Program-made: the position numbers and the translations under genes
Shown here: piece by piece, positions 1,716 through 18,446 of the stretch
Position numbering within the stretch: the stretch's first letter is position 1
Layout: each line of letters opens with the position of its first letter
The notes under the pieces: model-generated
Databases searched by the model: none
Seen by the model: the letters and a program-made list of their open reading frames with translations, nothing else
What the model was told of the DNA's origin: nothing
Virus record (IMG/VR): IMGVR_UViG_3300033150_000694
Span: 1-26,352 of that record
Length of the DNA stretch: 26,352 bases
Strand: one strand, 5' to 3'
Source of the DNA: a virus

Positions 1716-2084
1716 TTATTCTTTGATTATACACTGGATATCTTGTTCCGTGCACATAACAACTGTATATTGTTTACCGTCAACACCTTTTACGGTTTGT
1801 CTCCATGGAACATTTAAATCAAAAGTTACTTTTACCCCTGGTTTTAATGCTTTAGAAACTTCCCTATAGACCCCAGTTTTTGGATCATAGTAACCAGGTC
1901 CAACGGCCAACAACACGCCTTCTGGTTTATAATGCTTATCTTTGTATTGATCCGGAATTAATATTGTCTTTTTATCACCAATCGTATCTTTGGGTGGTAT
2001 CGGGTATATCAGACAAATGTCGCGTAATGGTTCGAGTTTTAATACGATTTTTCCCTTTTTGTCGTGAAATGGAGTCTTTGTCAT
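1716..2084 (-). CDS. GroES-like co-chaperonin
   Basis: A 122-residue protein with the GroES beta-barrel pattern. It has an opening LEPLRD strand, a mobile-loop region (about residues 30-45) with the hydrophobic ILI patch expected to dock on GroEL, then the PEGVLLAVGPG strand, a KPGVKVTFD strand and a closing strand ending in an EQDIQCII-like tail. I chose the ATG at 2084 because it follows the SD GAAAGGG; an upstream in-frame TTG (2102) would place that SD inside the gene. Phage co-chaperonins such as T4 gp31 cap host GroEL to fold the capsid protein, and location beside packaging genes fits that. No GroEL gene is in this window. The segment between the PEGVLLAVGPG and KPGVKVTFD strands is longer than in bacterial GroES. 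Confidence 0.8.
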   Translation of the reverse strand: MTKTPFHDKKGKIVLKLEPLRDICLIYPIPPKDTIGDKKTILIPDQYKDKHYKPEGVLLAVGPGYYDPKTGVYREVSKALKPGVKVTFDLNVPWRQTVKGVDGKQYTVVMCTEQDIQCIIKE

Positions 2085-2098
2085 TTTCTTTTTCCCTT

Positions 2099-2401
2099 TC
2101 AATAAACCGGAAGTTTATCTGATTCTATATAAGAAGCTTTGCAACAACCATCTAATATTGCAGTGGCTTTATAACATAACGGCGTATTGATAACAAACCA
2201 TTCGGCAATTTTTTGTAATAATTGCATATTACAGGAGAATGGTTGGTGTGGCTCGAATAAAAACCAATCTTGTTTATATAAATCCGATGGTTTAGCTATT
2301 TCTGTTTCATTTATGATAAAATTGGACACCCTATAAATTGCGACTTGACATATGTCTCCACCATTTACTTGAACGTTAATACAATTTTTTGTTTTAAACA
2401 T
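2099..2401 (-). CDS. Hypothetical protein, 100 aa
   Basis: Not recognised. I use the ATG at 2401, which follows TGTGGAG at SD distance, rather than the ATG at 2416, which has no SD. With this start the gene overlaps the end of the upstream Rad50 C-half gene by eight bases (ATGTTTAA). The protein is soluble-looking, with several cysteines (including a GCC pair) and aromatic patches, and no signal peptide or membrane span. It lies between a recombination gene and the GroES-like gene, which gives no clear hint of function. Confidence 0.65.
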   Translation of the reverse strand: MFKTKNCINVQVNGGDICQVAIYRVSNFIINETEIAKPSDLYKQDWFLFEPHQPFSCNMQLLQKIAEWFVINTPLCYKATAILDGCCKASYIESDKLPVY

Positions 2402-3017
2402 CTGTTTTCTCCACATTTGATATATTATTAGTTTTTATGACAAGAAATGTTGAATCACCAGTCATCTTTAATTCATCTTCATGTGTTATTATTATGAATT
2501 GTAGATTTAAAGCTTTAGATAATTCCTTAATCATTTCTCCAGCTAGTGTTAATCTGGACGAATCCAGATTTTTCATTGGCTCGTCCAACAGCAATACATT
2601 ATCCGATTTTTCATCCTGAATGGCCCAGGATACGACTCGCAAAGCAAAACTGCATACATCAACTACCCCACCACCAAAATAATCATCGGCATTTTTTAAT
2701 AAACAACGCTCACCGTTTTCTACTACATACAAAAATGTCTCCGGCTGTCCACGATTTATTTTATTGTCGATTTCAAAAGAATGACTTTCACCGTATACTG
2801 ATTGTAGAGCTAAAGTTACCAATTCTTCAATAACATTTTTAGAATTTTCTTGTGCCAATATAGAGACTGCATTCATTACATCATCAGCTTCTCTTATATC
2901 GGATAATGATTTGTTTAATGAAGCCAATGTGAATTCGAGATTCGACCGTTTGTCAGTTAATATCTCAAGCTTTGCTTTTTGGGTATTTAAAAATTTTGTG
3001 TATTTATCCAAATTCAT
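2394..3017 (-). CDS. Rad50/SbcC-type ATPase, C-terminal half (separate gene)
   Basis: A 207-residue protein equivalent to the C-terminal lobe of Rad50/SbcC/T4 gp46. Residues 1-65 form a short coiled coil. The signature region GGGVVDVCSFALR is at 115-127, Walker B VLLLDEP at 141-147 (D145, E146), the D-loop NLDSS follows, and the H-loop IIITHED is at 175-181. There is no Walker A. The matching N-half with Walker A is encoded separately at 6175-7299. The two would have to assemble in trans to form the ATP sandwich that works with the SbcD-like nuclease (4884-5795) in DNA end processing. It starts with an ATGA overlap on the upstream gene. The classical signature Ser is not evident, although a GGG form is what I recall from phage members. 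Confidence 0.85.
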   Translation of the reverse strand: MNLDKYTKFLNTQKAKLEILTDKRSNLEFTLASLNKSLSDIREADDVMNAVSILAQENSKNVIEELVTLALQSVYGESHSFEIDNKINRGQPETFLYVVENGERCLLKNADDYFGGGVVDVCSFALRVVSWAIQDEKSDNVLLLDEPMKNLDSSRLTLAGEMIKELSKALNLQFIIITHEDELKMTGDSTFLVIKTNNISNVEKTDV

Positions 3018-3280
3018 TGACCATTCCCAATAAAAGCCGATTTGCCGTATAAAGATTTAATCAAATTCGTAAATTCCTTTTGGGTTATCAAAATTGGTAA
3101 TGGTACGTTTTTTACTTTTCCTGTATCAGCATTAACCAGTGATTGTGCTTTTTCAAAAGGAATGGACGTCATTCCCCATAAAATATTGTCAACCCATAAC
3201 AGATCGAGAATTGTTATTGGTTTATTGTCTGGCAAATTGGCGCATGAAAAATCAACGCCACCAACATCATCTAAAAACAT
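3014..3280 (-). CDS. Hypothetical protein, 88 aa
   Basis: Not recognised. ATG 3280 follows a clear GGAG, and the stop overlaps the Rad50 C-half start (ATGA), so the two are translationally coupled. The protein is rich in hydrophobic and aromatic residues in its first half (an ITILDLLWVDNILWGM stretch that is probably buried strands rather than a membrane span) with a basic, mixed second half. Coupling to the recombination ATPase raises the possibility of a shared pathway, but the sequence shows nothing that proves it. Confidence 0.65.
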   Translation of the reverse strand: MFLDDVGGVDFSCANLPDNKPITILDLLWVDNILWGMTSIPFEKAQSLVNADTGKVKNVPLPILITQKEFTNLIKSLYGKSAFIGNGQ

Positions 3281-3306
3281 AATCTGTCTCCAATTACCCC
3301 AAATTG

Positions 3307-3834
3307 TTATAATTTATATACTGTTACCGGTATTCCGTGATCACACCAAATTTCCTTGATTAATATTTTGATGAAATCCCAATTACCACCAGCTAAACCG
3401 GATCCAAATTTACAACAATGTATCGACGAATTAAATTTCATTTCTGGTAAAATAGATTCTCTAATGTATACCATACATTTGATTAGTGCTTCGTATTTTA
3501 ACGGTATTGGGTTATTTGGTCCTCGTACACCATCTTGTGCTATCATATTAACAACAAATGTTTTCATTACTATACGTGGATCATGCATATTAACCGGTAT
3601 GAATTGACAATCACCAAGACAAAGTTGTGTCGGCACCTGGGTAATTTCCTGTAAATAACGTTCTTTAACTTCTGGATATTTCTCAGCAACAGTTTTTGCA
3701 AACCCAGCCCCAAATCTCCCGGCGTTGTTGCAAACGTGTGGAGTAATTATCACTTTGCCAATTTTATAAAAATCTGTTGGATTAATTGCTGGTTCCAACG
3801 CATTGCCAATGATTTCTTTATATAAATTATTCAT
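3307..3834 (-). CDS. Macro-domain protein (ADP-ribose-binding, hydrolase-like)
   Basis: A 175-residue single macro domain. The diagnostic ADP-ribose pocket is visible: PHVCNNAGRFGAGFA at residues 32-46 (N-rich strand plus Gly loop), a FVVNMIAQDG strand at 93-102 and the phosphate-binding loop CKFGSGLAGGNWDFI at 141-155. Macro domains bind ADP-ribose. Poa1p/TARG1/DarG-like members remove ADP-ribose or its 1''-phosphate from nucleic acid or protein. The spacing GRFGAGFAK then YPEVKERY resembles that branch. The gene overlaps the PEP-CTERM gene upstream (ATGA). Likely roles, inferred only, are reversal of ADP-ribosylation by a host defence toxin such as DarT, or processing of ADP-ribose phosphates from RNA repair. 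An RNA ligase gene is present at 21710-22927. Confidence 0.8.
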   Translation of the reverse strand: MNNLYKEIIGNALEPAINPTDFYKIGKVIITPHVCNNAGRFGAGFAKTVAEKYPEVKERYLQEITQVPTQLCLGDCQFIPVNMHDPRIVMKTFVVNMIAQDGVRGPNNPIPLKYEALIKCMVYIRESILPEMKFNSSIHCCKFGSGLAGGNWDFIKILIKEIWCDHGIPVTVYKL

Positions 3835-4391
3835 TTAATTTTTCCATTTTTGCAAAACAGCAGACAACCAAGACCCAGGATGCATATTGTTGTTGGTTCA
3901 GGAACGATTATAATATTTCCATCTATAAACGACCCCGTTACATTATTCTTCTTAACAAGAACTTGTGTCGGGGAAAGACCCACATTATATATCACAATAT
4001 TAGTATTAGGAGTTTGGGCCAAAGCTTTTAAATTTACTGAAGCGAAAAGGAAATCCGTTGTTGGGTTAGATCTGGGTCGTTTTGCGGATATTGTATAATC
4101 CGGATTGCCGGAAAGGTTATTTTCAACAAAACTGTTCCACTTATAATCTCCCTGGCTCACGTTATTTAATTGCAAAAAGTTTTCATCCCAACCAAAATTA
4201 ACAACAACAGTAGTAATACCAGTCTGCCCATCATCGCGTAGCCATATGCCCACATTGAAATAATCACCAACACTAACTGTATCTACTGCTGGTTCAATTG
4301 ACATATCTACCAGATTGGCTTGAATAGATGTATTTGTAAATGAAACAAATAAAAAAATATTAAAAATTATTGATATATTTCTCACAATCAT
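3831..4391 (-). CDS. Secreted cohesin-like protein with PEP-CTERM sorting signal
   Basis: A 186-residue exported protein. Residues 1-25 form a signal peptide (charged start, hydrophobic stretch IIFNIFLFVSF, small residues before a likely cleavage near QA/N). The body (about 28-160) has alternating beta strands resembling cohesin-like domains: a VSVGDYFNVGIWLRDD strand pair and VVVNFGWDENFLQLNNVS. The C-terminus is a textbook PEP-CTERM tail: VPEP at 163-166, a hydrophobic span at 167-180 with Gly, and a basic tail (KNGKIK). In hosts, exosortase recognises this tail and processes the protein at the envelope. ATG 4391 overlaps the stop of the upstream gene (ATGA), so it is embedded in the phage operon and not a stray insertion. 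Finding such a protein in a phage recombination region is unexpected; it may remodel the infected cell surface or block superinfection. Confidence 0.75.
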   Translation of the reverse strand: MIVRNISIIFNIFLFVSFTNTSIQANLVDMSIEPAVDTVSVGDYFNVGIWLRDDGQTGITTVVVNFGWDENFLQLNNVSQGDYKWNSFVENNLSGNPDYTISAKRPRSNPTTDFLFASVNLKALAQTPNTNIVIYNVGLSPTQVLVKKNNVTGSFIDGNIIIVPEPTTICILGLGCLLFCKNGKIK

Positions 4392-4672
4392 TTCTGTTTT
4401 TTCTCTATTTTTATATTTTCTTCTATTTCACCAACAATCTCTATCGTCGTTCCGGCTTTAAATAATCTAACAGAAATCGATAGCGGTTCATTAAATGGTA
4501 ATTCATCACGGTCAAGCCAATTACTGTCAGTGGTTAGCCAATATTTAGCACCGGATTTCTTATCCTTTTTAATTATAGCTCTACCAATTACTTCCGGATT
4601 ACGAAGATTTATTTTCGGCCGAAGCAATGATTTCAGCCATTTCTGAATCCAAGTCAATAAGTTTTTTCTCAT
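4388..4672 (-). CDS. Hypothetical protein, about 94 aa (start uncertain)
   Basis: Not recognised. The reading frame is open up to 4711. ATG 4672 has an AAGG at SD distance and gives 94 residues, but then overlaps the coiled-coil gene by 74 bases. A TTG at 4627 would cut the overlap to 29 bases. The core (from about LRNPEVIGRAI onward) is beta-rich, with KYWLTTDSNWL and a lysine-rich C-terminus (IEKKQK). The stop overlaps the PEP-CTERM start (ATGA). The basic N-terminal segment in the longer form could simply be an artefact of reading the coiled-coil gene in a second frame. No function is assigned. Confidence 0.55.
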   Translation of the reverse strand: MRKNLLTWIQKWLKSLLRPKINLRNPEVIGRAIIKKDKKSGAKYWLTTDSNWLDRDELPFNEPLSISVRLFKAGTTIEIVGEIEENIKIEKKQK

Positions 4673-4859
4673 TTTCAGTAACCTTTTCTTGTAAATCATC
4701 CAATAAATCAACAGCAGATTTCAATGAATCAACACCAAATTCGGCTTTTAATTGTGAAAAAAGCTGTTCTTTTTGTCCATCTTGTCTGGATTTTTTCTGT
4801 ATCAGATCATTAATTATTGATTCTTTATTTTTTAATTGCTCTATAATATCATTGGACAT
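4599..4859 (-). CDS. Small coiled-coil protein, possible third piece of the split Rad50
   Basis: An 86-residue, almost wholly helical, charged protein. Heptad-like spacing runs through residues 3-35 and 50-78, joined by the segment FGVDSLKSAVDLL. ATG 4859 follows AAGGAA at good SD distance. It lies just downstream of the SbcD-like nuclease, between the genes for the N-half (6175-7299) and C-half (2394-3017) of a Rad50-type ATPase. The C-half carries only a short coiled coil, while the N-half has a long one, so this protein could supply the missing return strand of the arm. That is inference: coiled coils are compositionally similar to one another, and an unrelated scaffold or chaperone role is possible. 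Confidence 0.7.
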   Translation of the reverse strand: MSNDIIEQLKNKESIINDLIQKKSRQDGQKEQLFSQLKAEFGVDSLKSAVDLLDDLQEKVTENEKKLIDLDSEMAEIIASAENKSS

Positions 4860-4883
4860 TAGTATGTTCCTTATTCATTATAT

Positions 4884-5795
4884 TTATTTCGCGTTTATTT
4901 CTTCCAGACATTGGTCTATCACCAATTTCCCACCATCACTTGTGTTTTTTTCATCTGTGATTTTTACTAAAATTTGCTTCCAACCGGAAATTGCTGATTT
5001 GCCTCTATTTTTCAGTCTCTCGATAAATTTATTGAGTATTTCATTATCCCGTTTTTTTATCGGAGAAAGATCAAATACACTTTCTGCCGGTTCTATTGTT
5101 AATTCGACAATTTCTACTCTATTCGTATCGGTATCAAATATAATTACACCGGGTTTGTGTTCCAAATCAAATTTACCTATTGATTCACGAACCAACGCCC
5201 CCGCATTAAGAATTGTTCGTCCTTCATAAGTTTCTATAAACCTGTAATGATAGTGACCACAAACAACCAAATTATAATGTGGATGCTGTTTTAGAAAATT
5301 TTTTGGGTTTTTTAATTCCTGGTTTGGGAATAATGGCCGGTTGCCTATCATAGCGTGAATTACCAGTATATTATAATCATTTTGATTTTTGGGTATTGGC
5401 GGTTCTTCATTAAATCCAGCACCATATATCATCACGTTTCCGAATTGGTGTGGTTCATTATTTAACACGTGTATGACCCTGGCGGCTTTTAATACAGAAA
5501 GCGGGCTAGTCGGTAATGTTGCTGACGAGACACCGGAAACATCGTGATTGCCCCACGCCACATCCAATTGCACACGATATTTTTTAAGCATATTAATCAA
5601 TGCTGACATCACAATATTTGATACATTGGGGCTGTTAACTAAATCCCCAGGTTGGATAATTCTGTCACATTTTTTATCACGAAATATTTCCAACGCTTCA
5701 TTAAATTTTGATTTCTGAGTTTCCCAATAATTATCCAACCTACGCTTTGGTTGTGACGTTGTGAATTGTGTATCTCCTAATATACCAAGAATCAT
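4884..5795 (-). CDS. SbcD/Mre11/gp47-like nuclease (metallophosphoesterase)
   Basis: A 303-residue calcineurin-like phosphoesterase, the likely nuclease partner of the Rad50-type ATPase in DNA end processing. Visible metal-binding motifs are GDTQ at 7-10 (D8), PGD at 49-51 (D51), GNHD at 82-85, H146 in VIHAM and GHYH at 179-182. Motif I has Gln where Mre11-type enzymes usually have His (D-x-H). The C-terminal 70 residues are helical and charged, suitable for ATPase docking. ATG 5795 overlaps the upstream stop (TAATG) with GGGG upstream. The location between the two split Rad50 genes supports the SbcD role over a generic phosphatase. Confidence 0.8.
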   Translation of the reverse strand: MILGILGDTQFTTSQPKRRLDNYWETQKSKFNEALEIFRDKKCDRIIQPGDLVNSPNVSNIVMSALINMLKKYRVQLDVAWGNHDVSGVSSATLPTSPLSVLKAARVIHVLNNEPHQFGNVMIYGAGFNEEPPIPKNQNDYNILVIHAMIGNRPLFPNQELKNPKNFLKQHPHYNLVVCGHYHYRFIETYEGRTILNAGALVRESIGKFDLEHKPGVIIFDTDTNRVEIVELTIEPAESVFDLSPIKKRDNEILNKFIERLKNRGKSAISGWKQILVKITDEKNTSDGGKLVIDQCLEEINAK

Positions 5796-6163
5796 TATAT
5801 CCCCGTTTCAGATTTAATGTATTTGTCGCGTAGAAAATCCTCCGGAGTTACAGATAATTTGATTTCTTTTGCGTGTTCTTCGACAAGAGTCGCTTTTCTT
5901 ACTGTCATTTTTATTTCGGGTGGTTTGTAATGGGACGGTTTCTCTTCTACAGCCGAACGATATAGCGCAGGAGACACACTCACTTCCATCAAAAATACAA
6001 CATTCTCGGATTTACCCGCAATAATTGCATCAACTTGCTTTTGTAAAAATTCTTTGTCTCTAAAGCGGCAGAAATACCTACCGTCCAATTCAGAATAACC
6101 CTCTTCTCTTCCGTCTTTTAAATTCAAAAATTCTTCTCTCGTTATTTCAATTGTGGTTCTCAT
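5795..6163 (-). CDS. Hypothetical protein, 122 aa
   Basis: Not recognised. ATG 6163 follows a strong AAAAGGAG, and the stop overlaps the nuclease start (TAATG). The protein is highly charged. Its N-terminal half looks like a small alpha/beta domain (MRTTIEITREEFLNL, then DGRYFCRFRDKEF), and the rest is lysine- and glutamate-rich. It lies between the Rad50 N-half and the SbcD-like nuclease in one overlapping unit, so a role with that complex is possible but unproven. Confidence 0.7.
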   Translation of the reverse strand: MRTTIEITREEFLNLKDGREEGYSELDGRYFCRFRDKEFLQKQVDAIIAGKSENVVFLMEVSVSPALYRSAVEEKPSHYKPPEIKMTVRKATLVEEHAKEIKLSVTPEDFLRDKYIKSETGI

Positions 6164-6174
6164 TTATTCTCCTT

Positions 6175-7299
6175 TTAATAATCGTTTAATACTCTATGTT
6201 TTGATTCTTCTGTTAATTTCGCCCCACATTTTGGACATTCGACTAATTGTTCTTCTATTTCCTTTTTAGATCTTTCTTCCAATTCCAATTTGTGTTTAAT
6301 ATCATTAGTTAATGCGTTAATTTTATTTATTTTCTCTATTATTTTGAACAATTTGTCATAATTATTCTTATATTTATTATACGTTTTAATGATTTTTTCG
6401 TTTTGTTCCAAAATTCCATTGGCGTCCACAACGTTTATTTCTGTATTTCTAATAGACTTTATATTAAAAATTATTGATTTAAGATTACGATAATCATTGA
6501 TTAATTCATTGTGTTGGTTCTTTAAAAACAACGATGATTGTAATATCTTTTCACAATTATCCGGAATATTTATTGATTTTTTTAACAAGTCATCGATTTG
6601 ACACACAATAGTAAATAATTTTTTTATTTTTGTCTCAAGAACCGTATTCGTATCTATTATTTTTTTCGATTCTTTGATTTTTTGTTCCAATGATTCAAGA
6701 TTTATCCTTTCCAATTCCCCGATACGCGCATTCGTATCACACAATTCTGATTTATTACTGTCAATTTCTTTTTGTACTTTTCTTAATTTGCTGGAAATTA
6801 AATTGCACACTGAATCGATTTCGTTCAATTTCGTGATAGAACGGAGAAAAGTTGCTACTTGTCCGGGTGGATCAAATGCCAGAAAATATGGGGAAAGTTG
6901 GCGTTGAATGTTTATTTCATTTAAATTTATTACATCCAATACTTCTGGGGGTGGTGCCTGACCAAAAGAACTTAATGAAATTTTTGACTCACCATCAGCT
7001 ATCGTATATTTACCATTAGAATTTTTGGTTTTTGATCTAGAAACGGTGATTATTTTTCCATTTGCATCTTTTACTAATTCCGCCAACGCTTCTTCTGTTA
7101 AATGTTTTTCGCCGTTTATGTAATAATATCTTATCATCCCCACACCAAGTGGGCGATTGTCGGCTACCCAACATATGGCTCGACGGATCGCAGATTTACC
7201 ATCATTACTTTTCCCACATATAATATTTACACCAGGGGAAAAATTTAATAATGAATCTTCGTGGGAGAATAAATTTTTAAGTTTTATAGATTTAATCAT
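6175..7299 (-). CDS. Rad50/SbcC-type ATPase, N-terminal half ending at the zinc hook
   Basis: A 374-residue protein equivalent to the N-lobe and ascending coiled coil of Rad50/SbcC/T4 gp46. It opens with MIKSIKLKNLFSHED, the usual first strand. Walker A GKSNDGKS is at 29-36, and a Q-loop-like NIQRQLSPYFLAF segment lies near 130-142. Residues about 170-345 are long coiled coil. It ends with CPKCGAKL: C355 and C358 form the CxxC of a zinc hook just 16 residues from the stop. In one-piece Rad50 the chain would turn here and return to the C-lobe. That lobe is encoded at 2394-3017. ATG 7299 overlaps the resolvase stop (ATGA). The gene is complete, so this is a real split at the apex of the arm and not a frameshift. 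Confidence 0.87.
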   Translation of the reverse strand: MIKSIKLKNLFSHEDSLLNFSPGVNIICGKSNDGKSAIRRAICWVADNRPLGVGMIRYYYINGEKHLTEEALAELVKDANGKIITVSRSKTKNSNGKYTIADGESKISLSSFGQAPPPEVLDVINLNEINIQRQLSPYFLAFDPPGQVATFLRSITKLNEIDSVCNLISSKLRKVQKEIDSNKSELCDTNARIGELERINLESLEQKIKESKKIIDTNTVLETKIKKLFTIVCQIDDLLKKSINIPDNCEKILQSSLFLKNQHNELINDYRNLKSIIFNIKSIRNTEINVVDANGILEQNEKIIKTYNKYKNNYDKLFKIIEKINKINALTNDIKHKLELEERSKKEIEEQLVECPKCGAKLTEESKHRVLNDY

Positions 7300-7835
7300 T
7301 TATTCATCTTATCCAAACCATAATTGGCCACCAGTACGGCGTCTGCTCTCCCGTCCAGTACCCTGCCTCTTTTGGTTTCTAAAATTATTCGCGGATATAA
7401 TTCTTTAGCTTTTTTGATTGATTGTTCTTTAGTATCCCCATTTTTGCTGGAAATCCCATAAAAACGTTGCCATACGCGTGGATTTACAAATTCATATTTT
7501 ATATCAAGAAAATGCAGTATCGTTTCGAATATTGCTTCGCACCTTGCTAATCCCAAATTACTTTTTATTGTAAATCCCCTTGGTAATATTTGAACTTTTT
7601 CTAAAAATACTATAATATTTTTGTTCCAACATAAAGACGTTACAGATTTTATATCCTTTATAATTTTAATAATTTTGTCTATATCATACACGTGCTTTTT
7701 GGATTTTTTCTTTTTTTCTTTTACAACAATTACCGGCATATCAAACGCCAGTGTTACACCGTCCGGGAAAATTACAACTATGGCACCTTTCAATCCGGGA
7801 TCAACACCAATAACAGTTGATTCAACACGTTTCAT
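7296..7835 (-). CDS. RuvC-like Holliday junction resolvase
   Basis: A 179-residue RNase H-fold nuclease. The four acidic residues of the RuvC type can be placed: D12 in IGVDPGLKGAIV, E79 in VFLEKVQ, and D161 and D165 in DGRADAVLVA. The lysine-rich loop near 40-48 may contact DNA. The length fits RuvC (about 170). It would cleave recombination intermediates or branched DNA before packaging. It directly follows the RecA-type gene (RecA stop at 7836, this ATG at 7835) and overlaps the Rad50 N-half, placing it in a recombination operon. The D-xxx-D spacing at the end differs slightly from the bacterial D-xx-D. Confidence 0.85.
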   Translation of the reverse strand: MKRVESTVIGVDPGLKGAIVVIFPDGVTLAFDMPVIVVKEKKKKSKKHVYDIDKIIKIIKDIKSVTSLCWNKNIIVFLEKVQILPRGFTIKSNLGLARCEAIFETILHFLDIKYEFVNPRVWQRFYGISSKNGDTKEQSIKKAKELYPRIILETKRGRVLDGRADAVLVANYGLDKMNK

Positions 7836-8957
7836 CTACCATACCCTGGCTTTTCTCTCAACACCAACGGGTTCTTCTCTGTACATTAATTTCCAAACTT
7901 TCCATACTTCCTGTCGTAATTCTTCCTCCATATTATTATCTTCGATAACTTTAACCCAATGATGTATTTGATGTTCCTCACCAAATAATGATAATTTCGT
8001 TGAACGATTTTTCGCTGCAGTTTTTCCAACTTGATCAACGGCCAGGAAATACAAATTACTTGAAATATCATCTAATCCATACTCCCAAGTAATTTTGAAA
8101 CGTCCACTGCGGAAAGGGGGAGACACTTTATTCTTTATTATTTTAAACTTAACCCATATACCGGTTGTCACCCCTTTGCTATTTGTTATGTTGGAATCGT
8201 GTTTTAGGAGAACCTGAACTGAAGAATAAAATTCCAGTGCACGGCCACCTGATGTTACTTCTCTTGGGGCACCAAACATCGCATTGATGTTAGTTCTTGT
8301 TTGGTCAATACAAAACAGTGTAGTATTGGACGTTGCTATGGGGAATATATATTTTCTGAAACCACGACTCATTTGTTTAGCTCTGGTAACGGCGTATGAC
8401 GATTTTTCCATCGACTCCTCAAGTTCAACCTCCGAAGGCAGGGCGGTAATCGAATCTATAACTATTACTTTTGGTGCGGTATTCATCTTTTTTCCACGAC
8501 CATTTGGGTATATAATACCTCCCAAATATTTTTCAAACATCCCTTCTATGGAATTTTCTTTTTTAGGATCCGGGTCTAATTTTGTTGTCAATTTAAAGGT
8601 TTTAGAATCAGAGCAATCCAATCCATAAATACGAGCAAACACCGGATCCAATGTATGTTCAACATCTGCCATATAAGCAAGTTTTCCGGATCTTTGTGCA
8701 TAGCCCAATACCGTAGTCCCTAAAACTGTTTTACACGTTGACCCGGCACCAAATATATGAACAATTCTTCCAATAGGAATCCCACCAGGTAATTTGTTGG
8801 CAATTGCTAAATCAAGAAGTGTACAACCCGTTGGACAAAATTCGCTGACGGCTGGTAATTGTGTTACTTCATTCGCGGCTGCAGCAGAATCTGCAATTTC
8901 ATTGGTGATTTCACCCAATTCATCAGAATTATTTCTTTTTTTATCTTTTTTTGCCAT
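7836..8957 (-). CDS. RecA/UvsX-type strand-exchange recombinase
   Basis: A 373-residue RecA-family ATPase that would coat ssDNA and drive homologous pairing in replication and repair. After a charged N-terminus (1-35), CPTGCTLLDLAI leads into the core. Walker A reads GAGSTCKT at 70-77, with Cys75 replacing the near-invariant Gly before Lys76. The catalytic Glu is E100 (DVEHTLDP), Walker B is VIVIDS at 164-169, the switch Gln is Q219 (CIDQTR), and DNA-binding loop L2 is around 225-243 (MFGAPREVTSGGRALEFY). ATG 8957 has AAGGAAAAG upstream. All other motifs are intact, so it is probably active. The P-loop change is the notable feature. Confidence 0.9.
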   Translation of the reverse strand: MAKKDKKRNNSDELGEITNEIADSAAAANEVTQLPAVSEFCPTGCTLLDLAIANKLPGGIPIGRIVHIFGAGSTCKTVLGTTVLGYAQRSGKLAYMADVEHTLDPVFARIYGLDCSDSKTFKLTTKLDPDPKKENSIEGMFEKYLGGIIYPNGRGKKMNTAPKVIVIDSITALPSEVELEESMEKSSYAVTRAKQMSRGFRKYIFPIATSNTTLFCIDQTRTNINAMFGAPREVTSGGRALEFYSSVQVLLKHDSNITNSKGVTTGIWVKFKIIKNKVSPPFRSGRFKITWEYGLDDISSNLYFLAVDQVGKTAAKNRSTKLSLFGEEHQIHHWVKVIEDNNMEEELRQEVWKVWKLMYREEPVGVERKARVW

Positions 8958-12591: not shown

Positions 12592-15159
12592 TTATATTTC
12601 TTTCATTTCAAAGTAATTTGGTCCACACTCCCACGACACATCGAGAGGGACTGTCATCCACGGCCATCGTTTCCTTGTCATTATTTCAGTACCGGCAGCC
12701 ACCACGTCATCTATTTCTTCCGGGTCCGTGTCTATAATTATTGCATCGTGGCATTCATTGATTATTCGACTTTTAAATCCATTATTTATTAAATAATTAT
12801 CAAGTTCAACCATTGAATCTAATAATATGTGAAAGCTTCCCCCTTGTATGGGAAAATTGAAAATTTGATATGCAGTCAACGGTCCATAACATCTGTAACC
12901 TGTTAAACCTTCGACATATCCGTTTTCATTGTAGAATTTTATCAGCCGTTTTTGCCATTCGTGAACACCAGAAAACTCAGCCCATAATTCTTCCTGTAAT
13001 CTACTAATTAAATCTTTGGAAACACCTAAATGTTTAGAAATTGCCGGTGGTTTTGATCCATAAATTGATGGAAATACAAACCCGTTTTTGCCTAACCACT
13101 TTTGATCCTTTGATACTTTATCTATTGGTACATTATAAATTTTTCCCGCCCATTTTTTATGAATATCAATTTTTGCCACGGTTTGTCTAATTAATTCTAC
13201 ATCACCAGATGCCATTCCTATATTTCGTGCTTCGTGGGCTTTATAATCACCCTCTAATAAAACATGTCCGGGTTCCGGAATAAAACATCGACGGACTTCT
13301 CTACACTCTGCGTCGTGTTTATACATATTTTGTGTTGGTGGATTAGTCACCGATGAGCGATAGGTAGGCACTGTATGAAGATTTGTCGTTGGGTGAATTT
13401 TCCCATCTGGATATATTAATCTTCTAAACAAACCAATTTGCTTTGAATTTTCAGATGGTTTAGAAGCAACTTTTTTTATAACATCTACATATTTTCTATA
13501 CCTAAATAAGTGCCCCAACAATTCTTTGACTTCCGGATTGCCAGTTTTTGTCAATATAATTTCCAATGCTTCATTGCTCGTTGATTCATTACCGGCGTCA
13601 GTTAATATTGGTGGTAATTTATACCCACCGTATAATATTTTATTCCATTGTTTTGGTGAATTTGGATTGAATGTTGTTCCAGTATCTTTTTCAAATTTCC
13701 GCACTTGCTCGTTTTGCCGTATAGCTGCTAATTTTTCATTTAATTTTCTAGTAAATTTTGATTCAACGTCGTCCAAAGCTTCCACGGAGACTCTTATTCC
13801 ACGTTCTTTCAAATTAACCAATGTTGGTAAACTGCGGGTAAACATTTCATTAAAAGCCGCTAATTTTTTATCGGACTTTAATTGTTTGTGTTGATCATGA
13901 TAAGCAGCTATTGTATGACGGCTGTCAAAACACGCATAATTAACTTGTTTTTCTATATCACATTCTTCAATTTTTTCTATATTAATTTCGTTTTTATATT
14001 CCTGACCATTAAATTCATATGCTTGAAATGCTAAATTATTTGTACCGGTTTTATTATTTATTACGTGATTGGAAATCATCGTGTCGTGGACAAAATGATT
14101 TATTGATACGTTAAGAACTACCCTGCTCCACAATTCCTCCATCTGATAATTTTGGATTGTCTTTGGTGAATCACTTGTTATAAAACTTTTCAGAGCTTCT
14201 TTGATTTTTTGCCTATCAATATCATTCCAAAAATATTTGTTGGTGATGTTATCTTTTAGGTCTATTGGTATATAATAACCTTTATTTTTATCATTAGATA
14301 ATGATATATTAATAATTCTTGCACCCGGTGTTAGTGGTGACAAGCTTGTGCATTCATAATCAAATGCTACTACATCTTCTGATTTCGAAAATTTATCAAA
14401 AATTTTTAATGCTTCGTCAACATTCGTAACAAATTCATTATTCTCATTTGTAAATGGTTTTGGTAATGGTAAATCCAAGACCCCCAAAATGTTTGCTAAA
14501 TCGTAAGTAAATATTAATTCGCTGGACACTCCATCATCATTATTCTTTTTGTGTAAAAAATAAGATGGGTGATATAAAACACCGACCCAGCAATTCAATT
14601 TGTGGTATGGGAAAACTTTTCCGTGAAGTTGTGTAACATTTGGTGAGGAAATCGCAGTAGTTTTCAATATAGCTTTCGTGGCTTCCGTCCCAAGACAAAT
14701 AATCAATTGTGGTCTGCATTCCTCAATTTCTCTTTGGATATTTTGTGAACAGCATTTTATTTGTGTATTAGTTGGTTTTTTGTCCCTGCCCCTGGCATCT
14801 CTTCCAGGATAGCATTCTACGATATTCGTTCTCCAACAATCGTTGTATAAATCAATACCACACAATTCACAATTTTTACTCAAGAAATTACCGGAAGCAC
14901 CAACAAATGGTGTAGGGGGTCTTGAATTATCTTCCTGTCTACCCGGACAAAGACCCACAAATAATATGGATCTTTCACCTTTTCCAAATTTAGTGATTTT
15001 TGGTGATTTGCAAGATTTATACAGACCGCAAGTTTCGCAATCAAATATTTTTGGTTCGGATTTTTTCGTCGAATGTCTAGTACGACTGCGTTTTCCGATT
15101 TTTGATGAACCAGTTATCTCTGCAATATCCCCAATAAAAAATGTACCTTGTTCATTCAT
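12592..15159 (-). CDS. Uracil-DNA glycosylase (family 4-like) fused to DNA polymerase I (family A)
   Basis: An 855-residue replicative polymerase with an extra N-terminal domain. Residues 38-230 match Fe-S family 4 UDG: cysteines C41, C44, C116 and C136/137; motif A GLCPGRQED (69-77, E76 kept, first Glu replaced); TNIVEC with N112; and HPS at 197-199. Residues about 245-425 are a 3'-5' exonuclease: D267/E269 (FDYE), N337...E341 where Asp is usual, and Y408/D412. The polymerase has motif A GDYKAHEAR (D638, E643), an O-helix KNGFVFPSIYG (691-701) and motif C CHDA (H804/D805, with Ala for the usual Glu). There is no 5'-3' exonuclease. ATG 15159 follows AGGAAA and overlaps the upstream stop (TAATG). 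Fusion could couple uracil detection to synthesis. Confidence 0.92.
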   Translation of the reverse strand: MNEQGTFFIGDIAEITGSSKIGKRSRTRHSTKKSEPKIFDCETCGLYKSCKSPKITKFGKGERSILFVGLCPGRQEDNSRPPTPFVGASGNFLSKNCELCGIDLYNDCWRTNIVECYPGRDARGRDKKPTNTQIKCCSQNIQREIEECRPQLIICLGTEATKAILKTTAISSPNVTQLHGKVFPYHKLNCWVGVLYHPSYFLHKKNNDDGVSSELIFTYDLANILGVLDLPLPKPFTNENNEFVTNVDEALKIFDKFSKSEDVVAFDYECTSLSPLTPGARIINISLSNDKNKGYYIPIDLKDNITNKYFWNDIDRQKIKEALKSFITSDSPKTIQNYQMEELWSRVVLNVSINHFVHDTMISNHVINNKTGTNNLAFQAYEFNGQEYKNEINIEKIEECDIEKQVNYACFDSRHTIAAYHDQHKQLKSDKKLAAFNEMFTRSLPTLVNLKERGIRVSVEALDDVESKFTRKLNEKLAAIRQNEQVRKFEKDTGTTFNPNSPKQWNKILYGGYKLPPILTDAGNESTSNEALEIILTKTGNPEVKELLGHLFRYRKYVDVIKKVASKPSENSKQIGLFRRLIYPDGKIHPTTNLHTVPTYRSSVTNPPTQNMYKHDAECREVRRCFIPEPGHVLLEGDYKAHEARNIGMASGDVELIRQTVAKIDIHKKWAGKIYNVPIDKVSKDQKWLGKNGFVFPSIYGSKPPAISKHLGVSKDLISRLQEELWAEFSGVHEWQKRLIKFYNENGYVEGLTGYRCYGPLTAYQIFNFPIQGGSFHILLDSMVELDNYLINNGFKSRIINECHDAIIIDTDPEEIDDVVAAGTEIMTRKRWPWMTVPLDVSWECGPNYFEMKEI

Positions 15160-16477: not shown

Positions 16478-17554
16478 TTAATTATTAAAAATCATATCAA
16501 TTCTTTTATTCAATAAGAAATTGGTTAAAAGTTGGGAACCATAATTCAAATCTCTTAAATTGATTATTTCAACAGGCGTATGCATATTTCTTAGTGGAAT
16601 ACCGATAAGTAAAGTTTTAATTCCATTTTCAAGCGACGATACACAATAATTTATTGTTCCACCGTCACCAGTTGATGCCTGGTACTGAATTTTTATTCTA
16701 TTTTTTCTTGCTATTGATGTTATTAATTTTAAGCTCTTTTTATCTATATCTACACCACGGAATAAAACTATGCCGCCTCCAAGTTTGCAATTTCCTGATT
16801 CTCTTTCCAAGACACCATCATCATTCCAATCGGTTGCAAATGTCGCGTCAACTTCTATAAACAAATTTGGTTTGTATTTATTAACAATCGGTTTGAACTT
16901 TTTGCCCCCAACTTCTTCTTGTGTTGAGAAAGTAAAAATTAATGTAGGAATTGGCTTGATTTTTGATTTTATAATGTTTTTTATTGTTTCTATTAATATA
17001 AAACACCCCGATTTATCATCAAACCCACAGCCGGAGTAATAACTTTCCGTTAAATGGCTAAAATGCGGTTTATAAACTACCGGGTCACCAATTTTTACTT
17101 TCGATTTAACGCTTCTCTTTTTTCTTATTCCAATATCTACTACGACATCTTTCATTTCCACTATTGATTCATCATCTTCATCATCAATTAGATGTGAATG
17201 TTTTCTATTTACAACAGCATTTATTTTTCCTTTATCCGTCAATATTATTAAATTTCTAGCACTAAGTATTGATTTATCACCGCCCCCTATATATTGTAAA
17301 CTTATAAAACCCTCTTTGTCTATATTATTAACTATAAATCCAATTTGGTCACTGTGTGCATCGATTATTATTGTTTTATTGGATTTTCCCTTAATGATTG
17401 CAATTACATTTTTCTGTTCATCTATTTTAACCTTTGTTCTTGGTAAATAGTTAAGCAGTTCATTCTTAATCATTTCGGCTATTTTTTCTTCAAATCCGGA
17501 CGGTGATGGGGTTTCAATTAATCCCTGTAATATTTTTATCTCCGAATTTTTCAT
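16478..17554 (-). CDS. M42 family metallo-aminopeptidase
   Basis: A 358-residue dinuclear-zinc aminopeptidase of the M42 (FrvX/TET) family, normal length. Expected residues are present: H67 and D69 (DAHSDQIGF), bridging Asp at 179/180 (GFDDKSG), catalytic Glu pair E213/E214 (STQEEVG), D236 (EVDATFATD) and H325 (MHTPVE). The insert around 90-165 corresponds to the PDZ-like lid domain involved in oligomerisation. ATG 17554 follows AGGGAATG. M42 enzymes trim peptides in the cytoplasm of bacteria and archaea. One in the replication region of a phage is unusual. It may recycle amino acids or degrade a host peptide signal. All ligands are intact, so it is probably active. Confidence 0.88.
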   Translation of the reverse strand: MKNSEIKILQGLIETPSPSGFEEKIAEMIKNELLNYLPRTKVKIDEQKNVIAIIKGKSNKTIIIDAHSDQIGFIVNNIDKEGFISLQYIGGGDKSILSARNLIILTDKGKINAVVNRKHSHLIDDEDDESIVEMKDVVVDIGIRKKRSVKSKVKIGDPVVYKPHFSHLTESYYSGCGFDDKSGCFILIETIKNIIKSKIKPIPTLIFTFSTQEEVGGKKFKPIVNKYKPNLFIEVDATFATDWNDDGVLERESGNCKLGGGIVLFRGVDIDKKSLKLITSIARKNRIKIQYQASTGDGGTINYCVSSLENGIKTLLIGIPLRNMHTPVEIINLRDLNYGSQLLTNFLLNKRIDMIFNN

Positions 17555-17690: not shown

Positions 17691-18248
17691 TTATTCTTCC
17701 GTTGGTTTTTTCAATCCAAGACGTTTCATAGCATTAAAAACCGTACTTTGTGCATTATGCTTTGCTCTTTTAGCATCCCTGCCCACCCCCATATAGATAG
17801 CAATCAGAGATTGCAATACATCATTGTATGATTTTCCTTCCAACAACAACTTTTTGGCGGTTTCCAAAATTCCAACCGTTTGACCCCCACGAACAACCGT
17901 CGTTTTCTTATCTCCAGTTTGTTCTAAATTCTTTGTAAGGTTTATATTATCATTTGTTTTCATTTGTTCCGGTTTTTCTACTTTTGGTTCCATATGTCTT
18001 TCATTCCTTTCTGTTGGTTTTATAATAGAACGTTTATTTGGCAATTTAATTTCTGTAAAAGTTTTTCCATTTACATCAACACGTATATTGGTATTCAAAA
18101 GTATATTACCTTCTTTCATACATTCTTTGTACAATTCTGGATTTATTTTGGCACACTGTTTGCAACGAGGTGATTGTTTTGATGTTTCTTCATTAACACA
18201 CCCAAACATTACACACGATTTGTCACCGGGTTTCTTTTTGGCTATCAT
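17691..18248 (-). CDS. Zinc-cysteine N-terminal domain protein with helical C-terminus, 185 aa
   Basis: Function not recognised. ATG 18248 follows GGAGG; an in-frame GTG upstream at 18260 is less likely. The N-terminus (1-45) has cysteines spaced C-x4-C, then C-x2-C, and one further Cys (SCVMFGC, RCKQC, ECM), suggesting a zinc-binding module. A polar Lys/Glu/Asn-rich linker (about 60-115) joins a C-terminal helical domain (about 120-180) with LLLEGKSYNDVLQSLIAIYM. The architecture suggests a nucleic-acid-binding or adaptor protein. Its N-terminal 45 codons and ribosome binding site are duplicated immediately upstream (18245-18427), and the two genes overlap by ATGA. Confidence 0.7.
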   Translation of the reverse strand: MIAKKKPGDKSCVMFGCVNEETSKQSPRCKQCAKINPELYKECMKEGNILLNTNIRVDVNGKTFTEIKLPNKRSIIKPTERNERHMEPKVEKPEQMKTNDNINLTKNLEQTGDKKTTVVRGGQTVGILETAKKLLLEGKSYNDVLQSLIAIYMGVGRDAKRAKHNAQSTVFNAMKRLGLKKPTEE

Positions 18249-18267
18249 GTTAACCTCCACCTATTTA
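18114..18267. repeat. Tandem direct repeat, copy 1 (154 bp)
   Basis: Begins tttcatacattctttgtaca and ends at cctccacctattta. By hand alignment it matches 18293-18446 at about 140 of 154 positions without indels, at an offset of 179 bases. It covers the ribosome binding site and first codons of the 185-residue protein gene. Confidence 0.9.
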
Positions 18268-18427
18268 TTTTTATGCGCATCAAGGCATTTTGTTTCATAC
18301 ATTCTTTGTACAATTCTGGATTTATTTCAGCACATTGTCTGCAACTACGTGATTGTTTTGATGTTTCTTCGTTAACACAACCAAACATACCACATAATAT
18401 GTCACCGGGTTTCTTTTTGGCTATCAC
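18245..18427 (-). CDS. Truncated paralogue of the downstream zinc-cysteine protein, 60 aa
   Basis: A short gene whose first 45 or so codons repeat the N-terminal cysteine module of the next gene (CGMFGC, SCRQC, ECM cysteines all kept). After that it diverges into a short basic tail (LMRIKINRWRLT) that is translated through the downstream gene's SD sequence and stops at ATGA over its start. The start is GTG 18427 after the duplicated GGAGG; the equivalent position downstream is ATG. Most differences between copies leave the cysteines and reading frame intact, so it is probably a maintained small protein and not decaying debris. It may act as a competitor or partner of the full-length protein. 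Confidence 0.65.
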   Translation of the reverse strand: MIAKKKPGDILCGMFGCVNEETSKQSRSCRQCAEINPELYKECMKQNALMRIKINRWRLT

Positions 18428-18446
18428 GTTAACCTCCACCTATTTA
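18293..18446. repeat. Tandem direct repeat, copy 2 (154 bp)
   Basis: The second copy of the 154-base unit, separated from copy 1 by 25 bases. It supplies the start region of the 60-residue truncated paralogue, and its last bases coincide with the stop codon of the Dam-like methylase gene (TAA, 18444-18446). Confidence 0.9.

Follow-up and report, generated by a model that had tools for sequence, protein, structure and literature searches.

A probable PEP-CTERM protein encoded in the recombination operon of a myophage and the recurrence of such genes in environmental viral contigs

RESULTS

The window analyzed here, a stretch of 26,352 nucleotides from IMG/VR record IMGVR_UViG_3300033150_000694, carries a small gene on its minus strand among genes for recombination proteins (Table 1). 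Its coordinates, strand, start codon, and length are exactly those of the original prediction, which had been made from the sequence alone, and the ATGA overlaps from which coupling had been proposed were found at both ends of the gene. As for the neighbors that had been named, Rad50 was supported by profile matches, whereas the macro domain fell short of its Pfam cutoff; the same ORF nevertheless matched a PHROG annotated as a phosphatase. A search of positions 2000 to 8000 for promoter- or terminator-like sites returned no more than was obtained at shuffle level.

Table 1. Features of the PEP-CTERM gene, its neighborhood, and a relative's PEP-CTERM gene
Feature	Position	Strand	Remarks
PEP-CTERM gene	3831..4391	-	186 aa, ATG start; single TIGR02595 match of record G001
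Signal-peptide-like N-terminus	4317..4391	-	Residues 1-25, possible cleavage after IQA; hydropathy and inspection
Cohesin-like domain	3954..4286	-	Residues 36-146; Pfam PF00963, 25.3 bits (gathering score 24.1)
PEP-CTERM sorting tail	3834..3905	-	Residues 163-186: VPEP, hydrophobic span, Lys-rich end
ATGA overlap with upstream ORF	4388..4391	-	From the sequence; suggests translational coupling
ATGA overlap with downstream macro-like ORF	3831..3834	-	From the sequence
Upstream ORF, function unassigned	4388..4711	-	Counterpart in relative G027, 33% over 90 aa
Macro-domain-like / phrog_335 "phosphatase" ORF	3307..3834	-	phrog_335, 3e-19; Pfam Macro 12.7 (cutoff 22)
Rad50/SbcC C-terminal-half-like ATPase	2394..3017	-	phrog_15167, 7e-31
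Mre11/SbcD-like phosphoesterase	4884..5795	-	Probe that retrieved relatives L150 and L151
Rad50 N-terminal-half-like ATPase, CxxC motif at end	6175..7299	-	AAA_23, 37.4 bits
RecA-like recombinase	7836..8957	-	Two PEP-CTERM genes directly downstream of its homolog in G027
C39-peptidase-like protein with PEP-CTERM tail	L151:5669-7069	+	Only other case found in the viral contigs: L092

Over its whole length, the window matches parts of a longer record, G001 (IMGVR_UViG_3300033149_002975; 102,811 bp), at 100% identity, and it spans the junction of the two G001 ends. The first 114 bases of G001 are identical to its last 114, which makes it very probable that the genome, of about 102.7 kb, is complete. 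Genes for tail sheath, baseplate, head, and portal (the last matching phrog_1497) identify it as a contractile-tailed phage (myophage), and the gene sits, as had been claimed, inside an operon of a phage genome with virion genes. Host contamination of the window was ruled out, since it is internal to a record with identical ends and virion genes. No match to exosortase (PF09721) or to tyrosine integrase (PF00589) was obtained in G001.

Several other features of this genome were recorded. Rad50 is seemingly split into two genes with Mre11 between them, and the same split is seen in G027, a relative described below. A single ORF at 12592-15159 (minus strand) combines a uracil-DNA-glycosylase-like domain, a 3′-5′ exonuclease, and a family A DNA polymerase, for which only distant relatives were found in GenBank, the best-ranked at 25.6% identity. 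Among the phage replication genes, an ORF resembling M42 glutamyl-aminopeptidases (16478-17554, minus strand; 212.5 bits) adjoins a tRNA-Lys gene, and a 154-bp direct repeat (18114-18267 and 18293-18446, 91% identical) lies inside neighboring ORFs with near-alike N-termini. G001 also encodes a PurZ-like succino-amino-deoxyadenylate synthase (L022:4404-5504, plus strand) that scored 208.7 bits against a curated cutoff of 300; its best PDB match was 6fm1 (177 bits), and 7odx, labelled PurZ, was matched as well. Judging from this gene, the DNA of the phage may contain 2-aminoadenine (Z).

The small protein shows the overall anatomy that had been proposed for it, with a signal-peptide-like start (judged by eye), a cohesin-like body, and a VPEP-hydrophobic-basic tail. 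Hydropathy peaks are confined to residues 1-21 and 160-183. The extreme C-terminus, VPEPTTICILGLGCLLFCKNGKIK, presents the PEP motif, then a hydrophobic span (about 14 residues in the PEP-CTERM criterion), and then a basic end. Residues 26-160 contain 13.3% Asn, 7.4% Ser, 8.1% Thr, no Cys, and 5.9% Lys plus Arg, against 6.6, 5.6, 5.2, 2.1, and 14.4%, respectively, in the 27 other ORFs of the window; the same bias, a depletion of Cys and basic residues together with an enrichment of Asn, Ser, and Thr, is described for PEP-CTERM proteins by Haft et al. (PMC1569441). The GC content of the gene (0.346) is near that of the phage (0.333). According to the Pfam model, whose threshold is just exceeded, the body is cohesin-like. 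Cohesin domains adopt a nine-stranded jelly-roll fold and have dockerin as a partner. Cohesin structures were absent among the matches of a PDB sequence search with the protein, and AlphaFold, run on the lone sequence without relatives, gave a mean pLDDT of 36.

Curated models scored the tail close to their cutoffs. TIGR02595 (cutoff 16) gave 14.4 bits with hmmscan and 16.7 bits in six-frame searches, and PF07589 gave 17.2 bits, under its cutoff of 20.7; the profile match proposed as a check was thus obtained in one of three scorings, by TIGR02595 in six frames. The TIGR02595 cutoff was also reached at E ≤ 1 in 2 of 14 control genomes, and in none of the 14 at stricter limits, and the best match of G001 was the weakest among 50 records compared. 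A DNA pattern for VPEPx[ST]xx[hydrophobic][LF]G occurred once in the window and never in 100 shuffles of it. We also built a tail HMM from 49 tails of other viral contigs, with the window and two PEP-CTERM-bearing relatives excluded. In this test, which is partly circular because the training tails were selected by a VPEP pattern that the window also satisfies, the window tail scored 20.2 bits, compared to a runner-up of 4.5 among the 442 six-frame open-frame ends of G001 (60 codons or more), a best of 2.6 among 749 open-frame ends from 11 control loci, and no more than 9.4 for any of 40,000 shuffled versions of the tail itself. On these sequence grounds, we hold with high confidence that the ORF would encode a genuine PEP-CTERM protein.

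The search for homologs of the whole protein was less productive. In a scan of the viral contigs for close relatives, the ORF had no homolog besides the identical G001, which leaves it without conservation evidence, and no match was found among plasmids. Two weak similarities were judged to be chance: lactococcal phage matches among GenBank phages, at E = 6 only, and a Bacteroidales protein (L021, the sole locus in a scan of genome contigs) sharing the stretch NPTTDFLFA. A 24-residue consensus tail retrieved nothing from GenBank phages, although a query of that length had little prospect of a significant score. GenBank phages likewise yielded nothing for the C39-like protein of Table 1 or for one member of each of the two families, A and B, described below, and plasmids yielded nothing for one family A member or for the choice-of-anchor R protein of L151.

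Relatives of the phage were retrieved with other genes. The Mre11-like neighbor as a probe found L150 (49%) and L151 (46%), RecA found L148 (90%, 4.6 kb), and PolA found L007, L008, and L009 (36 to 41%). L151 is part of a 39-kb record, G027, in which 21 of 65 ORFs match G001, the portal protein is 51% identical, and the replication genes follow the same order. Between recA and rad50, G027 carries two ATGA-overlapping PEP-CTERM genes, one C39-peptidase-like and one choice-of-anchor R-like; the record was also among the contigs retrieved by the PEP-CTERM pattern alone (as L067). Another pattern-derived record, G040 (L092; 11.4 kb), encodes a portal protein 53% identical to that of G001, and four of its listed ORFs are 50 to 66% identical to G027. 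It has homologs of both G027 PEP-CTERM proteins at a different place, roughly 3 kb ahead of the portal gene. The TIGR02595 tail scores of these proteins were 18.5 and 20.6 bits in L151 and 19.7 and 17.2 bits in L092, for a cutoff of 16. No PEP-CTERM match was found in L148, L007, L008, or L009, each under 7 kb, or in G051, the partial 20.7-kb record of L150. The expectation that related phages would carry homologs was therefore borne out only for the type of gene: the ORF itself had no counterpart, whereas two relatives had other PEP-CTERM genes and the partial G051 had none. PEP-CTERM genes, with differing cargo or location, thus occur in three of the four group members for which more than 10 kb of sequence is available, a proportion that is no unbiased rate because it counts both G001, from which the finding comes, and G040, which was retrieved only through its tail pattern; of the two relatives retrieved through Mre11, one (G027) has such genes and the other (G051) has none. 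That 2 of 80 listed pattern loci fall in so rare a phage group is, we infer, far above chance.

The original prediction had set this phage gene against PEP-CTERM proteins that are normally chromosomal. A view of it as a singular case is not supported, since such genes recurred in a pattern scan of the viral contigs. The scan found at least 119 stretches, and 80 loci (L028-L107) were taken further. These gave 81 matches, 73 of them located 17 to 34 codons before a stop; by inspection, at least four of the 73 (L050, L066, L073, and L090) are short or without PEP-CTERM anatomy. Sixty-nine listed proteins had 60 aa or more, and 63 were profiled together with the window protein: at E ≤ 0.01, PF07589 matched all 64 and TIGR02595 62, the window protein being one of the two misses. 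PHROGs gave no convincing match for these 64 proteins (best 0.0085, for 1 of 64). Clustering of the bodies, among the matches listed, yielded a family A of 21 proteins (for example, L057:6969-7610, plus strand), a family B of 17 (for example, L105:8043-8759, minus strand), small groups, and singletons, one of which is the window protein. Some of these genes lie near terminase or portal genes; in L039, a family B gene shares one base with the ORF before it and stops two bases short of a P22-like portal gene. On a crude ORF map, 16 of the 49 genes with neighbors on both sides were codirectional with both, 25 with one, and 8 with none.

Among the matches listed, 49 other contigs of at least 10 kb, all selected by their tail, were examined. 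Because their PEP-CTERM proteins form 45 groups at 90% identity and 41 at 70%, these contigs are mostly, not wholly, independent. TIGR02595 exceeded its cutoff in all 49 tail-selected contigs, with one or two matches each, and exosortase (PF09721) matched none of them. A terminase (phrog_2 or phrog_9) or portal (phrog_156) match at E ≤ 0.001, weak in some cases, was present in 32; G040, with a portal that matches the G001 portal, is one of the 17 contigs without these phrogs, and G001 itself likewise has none of the three. Host contamination is possible for individual contigs of this set. TIGR02595 had no match in a further 16 viral contigs, which had been retrieved with PolA, RecA, or Mre11. 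Finally, the PF00589 integrase was detected in 3 of 50 records, G001 not among them. On this test, which addresses tyrosine integrases only and includes fragmentary records, lysogenic conversion is not favored.

A possible clue to function came from the second PEP-CTERM protein of the relatives, in which the choice-of-anchor R domain scored 36.9 bits (L092) and 22.9 bits (L151) for a cutoff of 30. One ORF away from a baseplate gene, G001 encodes a 437-aa tail-module protein (L023:5393-6706, minus strand) with two choice-of-anchor R stretches (41.6 bits) and an Ig domain, and direct alignment of the relatives' protein with this one gave 31% over 153 aa. When these four choice-of-anchor R domains were combined in a profile, it matched (8.4e-8) a solved chain that bears the label "DUF4815 domain-containing protein | ORF65"; PDB entries 9EUF, 9EUJ, and 9EUK are presumably a staphylococcal phage baseplate. 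For the Ig domain, the best PDB matches were chains labelled "Tail protein" and "Immunoglobulin-like domain protein"; animal Ig proteins ranked lower. A fold comparison of the choice-of-anchor R pair was discarded (AlphaFold mean pLDDT of 50; best Z of 4.1, to unrelated proteins). Were a binding module of the virion also exported, its expected effect would be to occupy the receptor or glycan of the phage itself. This link rests on relatives with different cargo and is an indirect hint of receptor or glycan occupancy; for the window protein, which had no BLAST match (E ≤ 0.01) among the other G001 proteins, such occupancy would be an analogy because its cohesin-like body has no such counterpart.

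DISCUSSION

The window protein resembles substrates of the PEP-CTERM/exosortase (EpsH) system of Gram-negative bacteria (TIGR02595, PF07589; Haft et al. 2006) in its start, body composition, and tail. It differs from that system in its setting, a phage replication/recombination operon with one such match and no exosortase match in the genome. Cohesin-domain proteins (PF00963) share its body according to the Pfam model, although no solved cohesin was matched by sequence. Viral families A and B have the same type of tail on contigs that likewise have no exosortase match, some of the genes lying among packaging genes; unlike the window protein, their bodies are unrelated to it by BLAST, and the examples studied in detail belong to structural modules rather than to a replication operon. 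A functional parallel is offered by Llp of phage T5, a lipoprotein with a lipoprotein signal that infected cells display and that mediates superinfection exclusion. The window protein would act alike, as an exported phage protein changing the surface of the infected cell, but with a PEP-CTERM tail requiring a host exosortase in place of the lipoprotein signal. In the titles and abstracts searched, with most subscription journals and bioRxiv outside the search, we found no description of phage-encoded PEP-CTERM proteins; the matching passages of the top-ranked paper (PMC12642866) concern Microcystis genes.

We propose that the ORF encodes an exosortase substrate. The protein would be made during infection from a single coupled operon that also supplies the proteins of recombination and replication, and the host Sec pathway would export it by means of its signal peptide. 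The tail would then retain it in the inner membrane, where a host exosortase would recognize the PEP motif, these steps being modeled on the family. Such a route, from signal-peptide export through retention by the tail and PEP recognition to delivery toward the surface or matrix, is the sorting model set out in PMC1569441, where most PEP-CTERM substrates are described as being without known homology or role. Because the phage has no exosortase match, sorting would fall to the host, and it is likely that a host exosortase does sort the protein. The small cohesin-like beta domain would be released to the cell surface or the exopolysaccharide. More speculatively, it might there occupy a surface glycan or receptor, such that the infected cell or its debris would stop capturing phage, with superinfection exclusion or protection of progeny as the outcome. 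Should the protein be sorted by the host, the analogies above leave this last role about evenly poised between true and false; the explanation as a whole, from exosortase substrate through host sorting to receptor or glycan occupancy, we likewise consider an even bet.

The main rival is that the sorted protein acts on the matrix instead of on a receptor, binding or loosening host exopolysaccharide or keeping it attached, with the result that progeny disperse or the infected cell stays aggregated. Overexpression of PepA in an Aquincola mutant lowered soluble polymer and raised bound polymer according to one report (PMC9850573), and another describes loss of biofilm formation upon loss of the Nostoc exosortase (PMC12188702); the C39-like peptidase among the relatives' cargo points the same way. 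Cohesin-like and choice-of-anchor domains are frequent binding modules, which also counts toward remodeling of the matrix. The window protein itself, however, shows neither an enzyme nor a known glycan-binding site, its coexpression with recombination genes is not an obvious fit for the release of progeny, and the Aquincola pepA gene is presented as acting in floc formation, not biofilm formation (PMC9850573). We regard matrix remodeling as a minority possibility, though one to be taken seriously.

Alternatively, the gene could be a host PEP-CTERM gene, recently acquired and carried without benefit, as the absence of a homolog from our searches and the different placement of PEP-CTERM genes in the three related phages, typical of genes that come and go, would allow. 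An undamaged reading frame that overlaps both neighbors by ATGA speaks against a mere passenger, as does a GC content near that of the phage, though a low-GC host would yield the same; the presence of PEP-CTERM genes in three phages of a rare group, together with two multi-member families elsewhere, argues for selection, and we find such a passenger improbable. Even less probable, in our judgment, is that the tail is simply a membrane anchor with an incidental PEP, serving a role in the periplasm or inner membrane (lysis control or an entry block) without exosortase. Borderline curated scores would suit this, and a C-terminal hydrophobic span would anchor the protein by itself, but the complete tripartite order stands at the very C-terminus, the tail HMM score is more than twice that of the best shuffled tail, and all four tails of the relatives exceed the TIGR02595 cutoff.

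Beyond the window, the recurrence of PEP-CTERM genes in dozens of other environmental virus sequences suggests that phages may use the sorting machinery of their hosts to change what an infected cell presents at its surface. We tentatively extend this to the idea, which we think possible although somewhat doubtful, that phages of exosortase-bearing bacteria form a large undescribed class that dresses the infected cell with its own exosortase substrates. The modules would be interchangeable (cohesin-like, choice-of-anchor R, C39-like, families A and B), and at least one group would reuse a tail-module domain and so cover its own receptor externally by way of the host's sorting pathway. Most phages examined for this class had no tyrosine-integrase match. 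As to the host, the style of the tail and the low GC content recall a planctomycete-type bacterium, which is a guess. A planctomycete MAG has been reported from the metagenome of the relative L150 (PMC7449369), a coincidence that is suggestive only.

Environmental Gram-negative bacteria use the PEP-CTERM/exosortase system as one means of constructing their outer surface and matrix. If phages do supply substrates to this borrowed enzyme, infection could reshape the surfaces of biofilms and flocs through a pathway not previously linked to phages in the literature searched, and some orphan PEP-CTERM proteins ascribed to hosts may originate from phages. A PEP-CTERM gene in a viral contig would then predict an exosortase-positive host, and superinfection exclusion by exosortase-sorted proteins would be directly testable in tractable hosts.
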